Source: Centipeda felix
GTDB lineage: Bacteria > Bacillota > Negativicutes > Selenomonadales > Selenomonadaceae
Assembly: GCF_900186465.1 (NCBI RefSeq)
Contig: NZ_LT891947.1
Span: 1-64,000 of the forward strand
DNA length: 64,000 bases
Direction of reading: 5' to 3'
Shown in pieces: positions 36,910-39,647 of this stretch; position 1 is the first letter of the stretch, and every line of letters begins with the position of its first letter. The position numbers and the translations under genes were made by a program. The notes under the pieces are model-generated. The model was not told the DNA's origin, did no database searches, and worked only from the letters and a program-made list of their open reading frames with translations.

Positions 36910-37468
36910 GCCAAAAACAAAACCGCCGATGCGCTTTCTCGTCACGCATCGGCGGTTCTGAGGAAAATACGGGAAGTGATAGGTAACTCTCTTGCATTCA
37001 AACGATCCACGCTTCATTCCGCATCGCCGCTAGCTTGAGATGCGGAACTTTCCGGCGAAAACGCTGAGAAAAACCACCACGACATGTTCTCTGTGCGCAC
37101 ATTCTGTTCCTCTCTGGGGAACGTCCTCCTCGTCATGCGCTAATCCATGCCCTCTTGTGTGCCCACCCCACGCGGGCTGCCGCATTCCCTGCCGCACCTT
37201 CGCTCGGCATCCCCGTCCGACCCAGCGGGGCGGGGTGCACAGTGCAGACCTTTGCGGCCACTCAGTAACCCATCGGAATCTCCTCCCAGTCCGTCGTGGA
37301 CGCTGCGGCTGCTTCCTCACTCAGCCAGCGAGGTGCATCCCGTGTCCCTCTCCAACAACCGTCGGTCAACACGGTGGGAAATCCCCGAAGGAGATACACC
37401 ATGTGCTTACAGATCACATGGGGGCAGCCTGTCCTGAATCAGCCTGCCATCTTACGTTCTCCTTAACT
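36910..37468 (-). ncRNA. Large (~560 nt) structured non-coding RNA, family not identified
   Basis: A consensus promoter (37475-37503, minus) fires into a ~560-bp stretch without protein-like ORFs that ends in a strong intrinsic terminator (13-bp stem, plus-strand arms 36921-36933 and 36945-36957, then TTTTGTTTTT on the minus strand). The interval is packed with local hairpins: perfect CCATGTG/CACATGG (37399-37421), TGCCG/CGGCA (37190-37209), GTTCC/GGAAC (37106-37122), and a 9-bp stem TTCCGCATC/GATGCGGAA (37017-37047). No RNase P, tmRNA or 6S signature was found. The size suggests ROOL- or OLE-like large RNAs, but I cannot confirm a family. A 3-codon ORF with a perfect SD (AAGGAG...ATG GCA GGC TGA) lies at its 5' end. 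Confidence 0.75.
36915..36957 (-). terminator. Terminator of the large ncRNA
   Basis: AACCGCCGATGCG and CGCATCGGCGGTT arms (perfect 13 bp), an 11-nt loop, and a U-rich tail on the minus strand. Confidence 0.88.
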
Positions 37469-37474
37469 ATCCTT

Positions 37475-37503
37475 AGTATAGTAAAACTTCAGAAGATTGT
37501 CAA
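37475..37503 (-). promoter_or_regulatory. Consensus promoter of the large ncRNA
   Basis: On the minus strand, perfect TTGACA (37498-37503), a 17-bp spacer and TATACT (37475-37480). It is divergent from the cyclase promoter 31 bp away. Confidence 0.88.
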
Positions 37504-37533: not shown

Positions 37534-37586
37534 TTGACAAACGCAGAAATTCGCAATAGAATAACATATAAATTTACTATGTTATT
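37534..37586 (+). promoter_or_regulatory. Promoter plus palindromic operator for the cyclase gene
   Basis: TTGACA (37534-37539) and TAGAAT (37557-37562) have a 17-bp spacer. An inverted repeat AATAACATA (37560-37568) / TATGTTATT (37578-37586) overlaps the end of the -10 box and the expected start site, the usual place for a repressor operator. The regulator is unknown. Confidence 0.75.
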
Positions 37587-37600
37587 AAGGAGATGGAACG

Positions 37601-38368
37601 ATGGGATATCATCTGTGGAATGTTCTTGATGAGCTGAAGTCGGATGCGTATGAGTGGGTGGATCTGACGCACCCACTGAATAACGACAGTCCGTGCTGGG
37701 CGGGGATCCCCGAGGGCTCGGTGGAGCTCTCAAAGACGTGCTTTGACTGGGGCAATCCGATGCTCGACTGCCTCATCCAGACGTTCAAGTTCCCGGGGCA
37801 GTTCGGGACGCACATTGACTTTCCGGGACATTTCGTGCGCAACCTCCCGCTCGCGGAGGACTTCGGTGCGCGGCACATGCTCTATCCGCTGTGTGTGATC
37901 GACGTGACGGAGCAGGTTGCACGCGATGTGCACTATGCGGTGACAGTGGAGGACATCAAGGCGTACGAGGCGAAGTACGGCGCGATTCCGGACGGTGCGT
38001 TTGTCGCACTCTATACGGGGTGGAGCCGTCACTGGCCGGATATGGATGCGATCTCCGGGATCGCCGCGGACGGCAGTGAGAACTTCCCGTCGTGGTCGAT
38101 GGATGCGCTGAAGTATATCTATGAGACGCGCAATGCCGCGGCGAACGGTCATGAGACGCTCGATACGGATGCCTCGACGGAGGCGGCAAAGGCAGGGGAT
38201 CTCGCGTGCGAGCGCTATGTCCTCGGCAAGGGGAAGCTGCAGGTCGAGGTGCTGACGAATCTCGACCGCGTGGCGCCGGCAGGGGCGCTGCTCTTCCTCG
38301 GGTGGCCGAACATCGAGGGCGCGACGGGGCTGCCCGTACGCGCGCTGGCGATTACGCCGAAAAAATAA
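37601..38368 (+). CDS. Cyclase-family (kynurenine formamidase-like) metal hydrolase
   Basis: The 255-residue protein of the cyclase superfamily has the metal-binding motif His-x-Asp-x-Pro-x-His in 'FGTHIDFPGHF' and a second conserved block 'ALYTGWSRHW'. Members hydrolyse N-formylkynurenine, isatin or other amides; this substrate is unknown, and no tryptophan-degradation genes are nearby. AAGGAG precedes the ATG. It is apparently transcribed alone. Confidence 0.85.
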   Translation: MGYHLWNVLDELKSDAYEWVDLTHPLNNDSPCWAGIPEGSVELSKTCFDWGNPMLDCLIQTFKFPGQFGTHIDFPGHFVRNLPLAEDFGARHMLYPLCVIDVTEQVARDVHYAVTVEDIKAYEAKYGAIPDGAFVALYTGWSRHWPDMDAISGIAADGSENFPSWSMDALKYIYETRNAAANGHETLDTDASTEAAKAGDLACERYVLGKGKLQVEVLTNLDRVAPAGALLFLGWPNIEGATGLPVRALAITPKK

Positions 38369-38527
38369 GGGAATGACCTGTGGCAGAGGTGCTGCCATCG
38401 TCTTCGAGCCGTTTTGCAAAGCCGATACCTACCGGCTTGCAGGCGGCTCCTTTTGTCTCCGTGGCAGGACTTTTGCGCTGGGTATCGAATCATAAAGAGA
38501 TAACTTGTGTGTTTAGGAGACGATGAA
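38369..38527. other. Intergenic region before the broken mqnE copy
   Basis: About 160 bp contain two small inverted repeats (TGGCAG-AGGTG-CTGCCA and AAGCCG-ATACCTAC-CGGCTT) but no T-run terminator or clear promoter. No known RNA element is recognised. Confidence 0.35.
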
Positions 38528-39647
38528 TTGCAGAGTAAATACCTCGATATTGAGAAGAAAGCAGAGCGCGGAGAGCGGCTGACGTATGAGGACGGCGTGG
38601 CCCTCTTTGCCTCGCACGACATCGCGTGGCTCGGTGCCCTCGCCGATCATGTGCGCGCAGAAAAATGCGGCGATATTGTCTACTACAATGTGAACTGTCA
38701 TGTGAATCTGACCAATATCTGCATGGCGCACTGTAAGTTCTGCGCGTTTGGGCGTGACGCAGAGGATGCGGGCGCCTACGAGATGAGCGCGTCGGAGGCG
38801 GTGGCACACGTCGCGGAGGCGATGCGCGACCCGCATCTCGCGGGACTGCACGTCGTGAGCGGGCTGCATCCGACGTGGACGTTTGACGACTACCTCCTGC
38901 GTCTGCGCGCGCTGCACGAGGCCTTCCCCTCACTCTACCTGAAGGGGTTCACGGGCGTGGAGATCACGCATTTTGCCCACACGTCGGGGCTCTCCGTGCG
39001 CGAGGTGCTCCTGCGCCTGCGCGAGGCGGGGCTGCAGTCGATCGCGGGCGGCGGCGCGGAGATCCTCTCCGACCGCGTCGGGCGGCGGCGCGGAGATCCT
39101 CTCCGACCGCGTGCGCGGGGAGCTCTGCCCGAACAAGGCGACGGCGGATGAGTGGCTCGCAACGCACCGTACGGCGCACGAACTTGGGATCAAGACGAAT
39201 GCGTCGATGCTCTACGGACACATCGAGACGCTCGAGGAGCGCGTCGCGCACATGATGCGCCTGCGCGACCTGCAGGACGAGACGGGGGGCTTTCAGACGT
39301 TCATCCCGTTCCCGTTCCTGCCGTCACATACGGAGCTGGGGCGGACGGTGCGGCAGACGTCGATGTGGGACGATCTGCGGACGATCGCGATCGCACGCCT
39401 CCTGCTCGATAACTTCCGCAACATCAAGGCGTACTGGGTGATGCTGACCGTGCCCGTGGCGCAGGTCGCGCTCGGGTTCGGTGCGAACGACATCGACGGC
39501 ACCGTGCACAAGGAGACGATCCTCCACGACGCGGGGGCAAAGAGCCCGCGCGCCCTCTCCGAGGATCACATCATCCGCATCATCCGCGAGATCGGACGCA
39601 CGCCCGCCGCGTGTGACAGCAATTTCAACATCATCGAGATGTATTGA
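38528..39647 (+). pseudogene. Second aminofutalosine synthase (mqnE-like), frameshifted by a tandem duplication
   Basis: It encodes a radical SAM protein with the CxxxCxxC cluster in 'NICMAHCKFCAFGRD' and the GGGAEILSDRV segment, like the intact mqnE at 52248. A perfect 34-bp tandem duplication (39045-39112) shifts the frame after 'GGGAEILSDRV', so translation from the TTG at 38528 ends at 39151 with a scrambled tail, while the rest of the enzyme continues in another frame to 39647. Removing one copy restores a continuous frame of 361 residues, the family length. It is either a recent mutation, a reversible (slippage-type) switch, or an assembly error. Confidence 0.85.
39045..39112. repeat. 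34-bp perfect tandem duplication inside the mqnE-like gene
   Basis: Units 39045-39078 and 39079-39112 are identical (each begins CGGGCGGCGGCGCGG and ends CCGACCGCGT). The unit length is not a multiple of three. Confidence 0.95.

Follow-up and report, generated by a model that had tools for sequence, protein, structure and literature searches.

A structured RNA of about 550 nucleotides and its short relatives share a ribosome start site and a very short open reading frame across eleven genera of one bacterial family

The 64,000-nucleotide (nt) stretch of Centipeda felix DNA analysed here (the window) carries on its minus strand a structured RNA of approximately 550 nt with its own promoter and terminator, apparently the enlarged member of a new RNA family that spans 11 genera within a single bacterial family. 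A large structured non-coding RNA had been proposed at this site in an initial annotation made from the sequence alone, and our data bear this out: the RNA is present in 14/14 genomes of the window's genus, its fold is backed by covariation, and no Rfam family reaches its cut-off. The promoter reported there, TTGACA and TATACT spaced by 17 nt, is present (37503..37475, minus strand) and matches 11/12 consensus positions, both boxes being invariant in 14/14 sequences, and a terminator hairpin is likewise present some 550 nt downstream of it, at 36956-36918. Our terminator scan of the window did not call that hairpin, which we attribute to a loop larger than the 3-8 nt limit of the scan. The genome possesses a single full-length copy of the RNA, its other 5 matches being noise of 17-24 nt, and no long conserved open reading frame (ORF) was seen within it when the alignment was inspected by eye, without a formal coding test. 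Its features, including the Shine-Dalgarno (SD) sequence and the mini-ORF on which the interpretation turns, are as follows.

36916..37468, minus strand: whole RNA, its 5' end inferred from the promoter and its 3' end from the terminator
37498..37503, minus strand: -35 box TTGACA, invariant in 14/14 genus sequences
37475..37480, minus strand: -10 box TATACT, spacer 17, invariant in 14/14 genus sequences
37459..37464, minus strand: 5'-end AAGGAG, invariant in 14/14; predicted to pair with UUUUCCU near the 3' end if the full 5' end is included
37427..37444, minus strand: first hairpin, loop AUUCAGGA; helix 1, 97% paired
37398..37422, minus strand: second hairpin, loop with invariant GUAA; both-side changes in 5/8 pairs
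37288..37394, minus strand: 5' domain, closed by helix 3 and holding invariant GUGUUGACC.ACG; helices 3-8 of the alignment
37282..37286, minus strand: SD sequence GGAGG, 8 nt before the AUG; invariant in the 14 long forms
37262..37273, minus strand: mini-ORF ATG GGT TAC TGA (M-G-Y-stop); stop within codons 3-6 in 74/75 rows
37016..37048, minus strand: hairpin with covarying stem and loop GCUAGC (37034-37029); helix 23, both-side changes in 5/11 pairs
36960..36982, minus strand: conserved 3' strand CUAUCACUUCCCGUAUUUUCCUC, predicted start-site partner in two near-equal registers
36918..36956, minus strand: intrinsic terminator hairpin; helix 25, 98.5% paired, both-side changes in 4/14 pairs
36933..36945, minus strand: terminator-loop element GTGACGAGAAAGC, an exact 13-mer at the RNA in 13/14 genus genomes

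A DNA search of 60 related genomes matched 14, which are all 14 of the window's genus, and 0/46 of the others; each carries the RNA in one place, with the exception of genome G003 where the match falls into two pieces. Besides both promoter boxes, much of the RNA is invariant in the alignment of these 14 members. The RNAalifold consensus comprises 140 pairs in 25 helices, with 94.9% of its cells paired. Shuffles reach 91.2 +/- 0.3, and sliding the partners by 1-3 columns leaves 35-45%, a control that retains kinship and falls far below, yet in which the consensus-derived structure is favoured too. Changes on both sides were found in 38/140 pairs (16.6 +/- 2.5 in shuffles, 0/500) and in 79 cells (24.8 +/- 4.1, 0/500), numbers to be read in the knowledge that kinship alone can lift related sequences above such shuffles. 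The window sequence by itself folds better than 100/100 dinucleotide shuffles (z = -4.34). The RNA fold is conserved and supported by covariation, and the hairpins are retained in related genomes, which had been named beforehand as a test on which the proposal could fail. Only in rows L004, L006 and L008 does a block of the 3' domain, TTTCTCAGCGTTTTG, appear to be tandemly duplicated.

Short relatives of this RNA were found in other genera of the family. A model built from the 3' domain of the long form only (R1), run over 189 genomes of the family at E <= 0.01, matched 34 genomes, 14 of them being the window's genus at 6.2e-37 or better and 20 being weak matches in other genera. These weak matches occupy 21 places outside the genus and cover mostly the terminator only. 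Sixteen of the 21 places were read, and 15 possess the start-site motif of the window RNA (GGAGGAGATTCCGATGGG or near) just upstream together with the terminator loop TGACGAGAAAG; as cut for alignment A5 these 15 RNAs measure 165-192 nt, and UUCA was seen by eye near the 5' end in 14 of them. A second model, of short forms only (R2), was built from the 15 R1-derived sequences and matched 54 of 380 genomes of the class, representing 11 of its 102 genera, all in the window's family and several with two copies. Nine of the R2 genomes are the long-RNA 3' end in the window's genus (9/14 at E <= 0.001), and at least one locus was read in each of the 10 other genera, with the start-site motif present.

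Altogether 59 short forms of 154-215 nt are distributed over the ten other genera, and their start site is of the same kind as that of the long RNA. The terminator loop UGACGAGAAAG is also found in 35/59 of them, and with its presence in 14/14 long forms, the window's included (TGACGAGAAAG), it constitutes a subgroup feature; the UUCA of the first hairpin recurs within the first 45 nt in 28/59. A promoter score of at least 10/12 was obtained in 56/73 rows, versus 1.47 expected from mononucleotide shuffles. Peptide ORFs starting from the CATG of GCCGACATG in the short forms were, by eye, not conserved. For the counts that follow, 4 of the 65 R2 matches (L066:1417, L061:1616, L063:1626 and L065:1626, on the other strand and lacking a start site) were dropped from the mini-ORF count, leaving 61 short and 14 long forms, or 75 rows, in which one place is represented twice (L037 and L069). 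The 59-row counts and the neighbour-gene, promoter and AUGGG-partner counts also exclude L104:2312 and L091:2366, which are partial or extra copies; at both loci the short RNA or its start-site block is repeated in tandem at close distance (L091 2366-2534 and 2563-2716; L104 2312-2357 and 2501-2695). No additional short copy was reported by R1 or R2 in the 14 genus genomes, and the AUG lies 283-325 nt from CCCGU in the long form, whereas in many short forms a CCCAU follows at a distance of some tens of nucleotides; we infer from these two observations that the long RNA is the window genus's enlarged version of the short-form family.

Over 398 genomes of a phylum, drawn around a Lachnospiraceae genome, R2 gave 7 matches, 6 of which share coordinates and scores with genomes counted above, while the seventh, L133, is without the start-site motif. 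The start-site 18-mer was found in 4 of 299 genomes of G382's family, one of them the seed, and the reversed pattern in 0; the five places concerned include one that is the start of a 475-codon ORF. R2 scored the Clostridia loci weakly (best E 0.0065) and we do not count them as members. Locus L124 (genome G540, of G382's family) carries two GGAGGAGATTCCAATGGG copies behind promoter-like sequences (1501-1540 and 2749-2804), with the ORFs ATG GGA AAG TAA and ATG GGA ACG TAA and with repeats such as CCAATGGGAACATAA and CCAATGTACACATAA after the second, apparently an array of three-codon ORFs. On the minus strand of L125, in a distant genome, a hairpin whose loop GCGACGAGAAAAC is similar in sequence to the GUGACGAGAAAGC loop of the window RNA lies approximately 130 nt upstream of the start-site 18-mer.

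The best-conserved block of the RNA is GGAGG, 8 nt and AUG GGN. The purine block at the SD site is near-identical in the 61 short-form rows, and in most rows it can be drawn as GGAG-GNRA-KUCC (N being A, G, C or U), with L102 and L108 as misfits. An in-frame stop follows at codon 3 in 13 rows, codon 4 in 60 and codon 6 in 1, with none in 1, versus 4/75 and 10/75 in the other two frames; the short-form part of these counts is biased towards a stop, since R2 was built from stop-bearing rows, and all 14 long forms, which were found by DNA similarity and not with R2, possess one. When the rows are collapsed to 47 distinct 32-mers, 46 have an in-frame stop, and the other two frames yield 3 and 9. 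Codon 2 is GGT, GGC, GGA or GGG, codon 3 is highly variable, and TAA, TAG and TGA are all in use. Since a stop persists despite variation in codon 3 and in the stop triplet used, it is the length of the mini-ORF that is constrained, and amino acid 3 is free. A different 3-codon ORF had been pointed out as an oddity at the 5' end of the RNA. It does exist (ATGGCAGGCTGA, 37450-37439), but by eye in the alignment only the window and its nearest relative L002 (94% identical, its version starting with GTG) have it and the other 12 do not; the conserved 3-codon ORF is the one at 37273-37262.

In 30 of 50 distinct short forms the AUGGG has a full partner 9-45 nt downstream, versus 7.2 expected. In the long form the start site has a complement in CUAUCACUUCCCGUAUUUUCCUC, a strongly conserved strand that we hypothesize might lock it. 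In the consensus of the alignment trimmed at its 5' end, the SD sequence is paired with UUUUCCUC and AUGGG with CCCGU.

The GCUAGC loop is self-complementary and invariant in 14/14 long forms, making it a possible kissing-loop contact for a dimer; pairing of this loop with GCUGGC in the 5' domain was considered and set aside, as by eye that partner is lost in L012-L014, and the kissing loop is preferred. The 13-mer GTGACGAGAAAGC of the terminator loop has 14 exact hits over the 14 genus genomes, 13 at the RNA and 1 inside a 695-codon open frame, so that it is not the genus's general terminator loop. In G002 (row L012) the outer two bases of this element change together from G-C to A-U and the loop TGACGAGAAAG is kept. 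Pairing between the terminator loop and the first hairpin is possible by eye in some short forms and is not general.

No Rfam 15 family reached its gathering cut-off anywhere in the window, and relaxed searches (E up to 5 for the locus and up to 2 for 13 relatives) returned noise with no large-RNA family, an HDV-like match of 19.2 bits against a cut-off of 50 included. Across 10 + 17 loci with short forms or look-alikes, the gathering level gave nearby tRNAs and noise only, and so did a relaxed E-value at one such locus. HEARO is an Rfam family. ROOL, OLE and GOLLD are in Rfam as well, according to PMC12286853. None of these four was matched by its covariance model at the cut-off or among the weak matches, which leaves the kinship with ROOL suggested by the initial annotation unsupported, and its alternative of a divergent or new class supported. 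The best genus match to raiA RNA (RF03072) reached 12.9 bits against a cut-off of 101.3 and lies at another place. A significant match to a housekeeping RNA, which had been raised as a contrary outcome, was not found: the genome's RNase P RNA (RF00010, 305.8 bits) sits on contig C17 and has no match in the window. In the literature searched we found no published description of this RNA.

The genes that follow the RNA on the same strand were tabulated for 72 distinct places and are diverse: a DUF362 ferredoxin-like protein in 17, IMP dehydrogenase (guaB) in 16, an OPT transporter in 12, a polyamine ABC ATPase (potA) and a Bcr/CflA MFS transporter in 5 each, and none of these five groups in 17. 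OPT follows the long RNA in 12/14 genus genomes, and in 12/12 of these gaps there is a TGnTATAAT, at 64-75 nt from a fixed point at the beginning of OPT and preceding it; L003 has a further gene between the RNA and OPT. In L014 (genome G003) only a 38-residue C-terminal remnant of OPT follows the RNA (L117 5343-5456; 50% identity, E 9e-6), itself behind a TATAAT-like sequence, so that this locus appears to have lost the OPT gene and retained the RNA. OPT was not found in the 10-kb stretch of L013. The long RNA outlives the transporter, given that L013 and L014 keep it without an intact OPT. A role for the long form as the leader of OPT was rejected on these grounds, namely the OPT gene's own TGnTATAAT and the persistence of the RNA in two species with no adjacent intact OPT, and we treat the long RNA as free-standing; a leader role is possible for some short forms. 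Gap promoters were examined in 9/16 guaB, 17/17 DUF362, 3/5 potA and 2/5 MFS places. Eight of the 9 examined guaB gaps score 10-12 in the promoter script, with only L108 individually clearly beating shuffles; what counts there is the recurrence, noted by eye, of ATTGACA plus a TATATTAA-like block. Scores in the three potA gaps are weaker.

Our best reading of these data, which we hold tentatively and at a little short of an even chance, is that of a free-standing RNA that engages ribosomes on a dead-end ORF, with initiation as the signal. Initiating ribosomes would engage the AUG of the mini-ORF, produce fMet-Gly(-x), and immediately terminate or fall off, such that the peptide would be irrelevant and the act of initiation would be the function. 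The likely partner of the start site would be CUAUCACUUCCCGUAUUUUCCUC in one of its two near-equal registers, in competition with the 5' AAGGAG, and in many short forms a local CCCAU may take its place. Binding of a ribosome could then switch the fold, so that the RNA would report on, or occupy, initiating ribosomes, and the terminator and GCUAGC loops may serve as contacts to a protein, to a different RNA or to a further copy of the same one. It is doubtful, though conceivable, that this amounts to a new category of regulatory RNA: free-standing, with dead-end initiation as its working part and the ribosome as its ligand, initiation capacity being read or soaked up and the effect exerted elsewhere through the terminator loop, and with one genus having grown some 300 nt between the AUG and the 3' partner strand, possibly as a dimer.

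Several of our own observations weigh against this reading, in addition to the bias in the short-form stop counts. The pairing of the start site is ambiguous in the long form: once the 5' end is included in full, the SD sequence is matched in the consensus to AUCACUUCCC and AAGGAG to UUUUCCU instead, the forced alternative folds are near-equal (-146.3 and -146.8 kcal/mol), and 0/14 single-sequence minimum-energy folds pair the SD sequence with the 3' strand. Covariation does not choose between registers because the pairing arms are nearly invariant (165/168, 126/126 and 80/84 cells paired). A full AUGGG partner is missing from 20/50 short forms. Row L106 has no stop in the first frame, and carries a small local repeat with a second ATG GGC AGG TAA. 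By the rule applied, 15/73 rows have no promoter. Cross-hits between R1 and R2 depend largely on the terminator. The terminator loop is lacking in 24/59 short forms (all 16 beside guaB and 8 others), such that only the start site supports their homology. Finally, 10/17 DUF362 copies lie 40-56 nt from the mini-ORF, mostly without a convincing promoter of their own.

This last point belongs to the rather unlikely alternative of a cis-acting leader, in which ribosomes on the mini-ORF would control the terminator and hence the downstream gene, as proposed for the fthC motif of Streptococcus. Many short forms indeed read as hairpin, SD-AUG, stop near a second hairpin and terminator, as that motif is described in PMC11109978, and in 55/72 distinct places one of the five gene groups follows on the same strand. 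The DUF362, IMP dehydrogenase, polyamine ABC, MFS and OPT genes, however, differ from one another, and 17/72 places have none of them. The TGnTATAAT sequences described above for OPT (12/12 gaps) count against a leader, as do the 10-12 scores of guaB gaps (8/9 examined, one by one only L108 clearly above shuffles); the potA gaps (3/5 examined) are weaker. No antiterminator was noted, a systematic search for one not having been made. A second alternative, which we judge slightly less likely still, is that the SD-like element is not translated and serves as a binding site for a protein or rRNA, the RNA being a decoy that captures, for example, CsrA or the anti-SD of 16S rRNA. The core could provide a protein-readable fold (GGAG-GNRA-KUCC), CsrA is encoded in 14/14 genus genomes, and an invariant CAGGA is present in the first loop of the long form. 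Binding alone needs no stop codon, yet the rows retain one in frame even though codon 3 and the kind of stop differ among them. CsrB-type RNAs carry arrays of GGA in hairpin loops; the long form has by eye a single invariant apical-loop GGA, and several short forms have none, and a CsrA sponge is not favoured.

Two further explanations have very little probability in our estimation. That the RNA is ROOL, OLE, GOLLD, HEARO or raiA, diverged beyond recognition, is suggested by size and complexity alone, and by the parallel between the palindromic loop and the quaternary kissing loops of ROOL or the dimer of OLE, as given in PMC12286853; against it stand the lack of any Rfam family at the cut-off and of these classes among the weak matches, the 12.9 bits for raiA versus 101.3, and the existence of a short relative. 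Just as improbable is a longer small-protein gene of which the conserved element (...EEIPMG-x-stop) would be the last part. Upstream, the frame stays open over 4-67 codons (median 25), but an upstream stop occurs within 10 codons in 20/75 rows, and an upstream in-frame start with an SD-like string in only 9/75.

Large ornate bacterial RNAs are mostly without known function or simple relative, and short relatives sharing the same core turn a 550-nt puzzle into a testable one of approximately 170 nt. That core is a ribosome start site with an ORF too short for a protein, and it occurs next to unrelated genes in 11 genera. Should ribosomes indeed engage this core, a free-standing RNA could have translation initiation itself as its input signal.

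Two features of the window lie outside the RNA. A promoter-like TTGACA-17-TAGAAT (11/12; 37534-37562, plus strand) is divergent from the RNA promoter and faces a putative cyclase gene at 37601..38368. Beyond it, a perfect 34-bp tandem duplication in two copies (39045-39112, plus strand) falls where a radical-SAM gene splits into two overlapping frames, and on account of this duplication the gene looks frameshifted:

38507..39151, plus strand: first frame of the radical-SAM gene (Radical_SAM)
38973..39647, plus strand: second frame of the radical-SAM gene (CofH/MqnC C-terminal region)

The RNA can be compared with several known systems. To the best of our knowledge no short relative of OLE, ROOL or GOLLD has been described. 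Like the long form, these RNAs span hundreds of nucleotides with an ornate fold, and they form homo-oligomers where the palindromic loop seen here may dimerise (PMC12286853); the passages on them in that source mention neither a mini-ORF core nor a 'start codon', and there is no Rfam match here. The rli53 / lmo0919 attenuator, as presented in PMC11550727, is alike in tying a short upstream ORF to conditional termination, but it controls an antibiotic-efflux gene in cis, whereas OPT here has its own promoter-like sequence. Short ORFs whose function lies in being translated form a third point of comparison. The bar minigenes of phage lambda consist of AUG, one or two sense codons and a stop. Two-codon minigenes such as mg2 of axe-txe likewise possess AUG, 1-2 sense codons, a stop and a function in translating; the minigene of axe-txe is embedded in an operon mRNA, where its effect is in cis, and it is not a free-standing structured RNA (PMC8708949). 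The fthC gene is not among the five downstream gene groups identified, which cover 55/72 places. The fthC motif (uORFC-39-1, Streptococcus) is the closest published layout, judged by the arrangement of its parts as described in PMC11109978. It consists of a hairpin, an SD-like stretch with a putative AUG, a second hairpin often containing an in-frame stop, and a terminator; its 69 representatives are exclusively from Streptococcus, with 5-formyltetrahydrofolate cyclo-ligase as the main ORF, and the speed of initiation was suggested as what could be sensed (same source). As far as that description goes, many short forms are laid out alike, with a full AUGGG partner in 30/50, and the long form has its start-site partner predicted in two near-equal registers; what sets the present family apart is its several unrelated neighbour genes, its often specific terminator loop and its form of approximately 550 nt.
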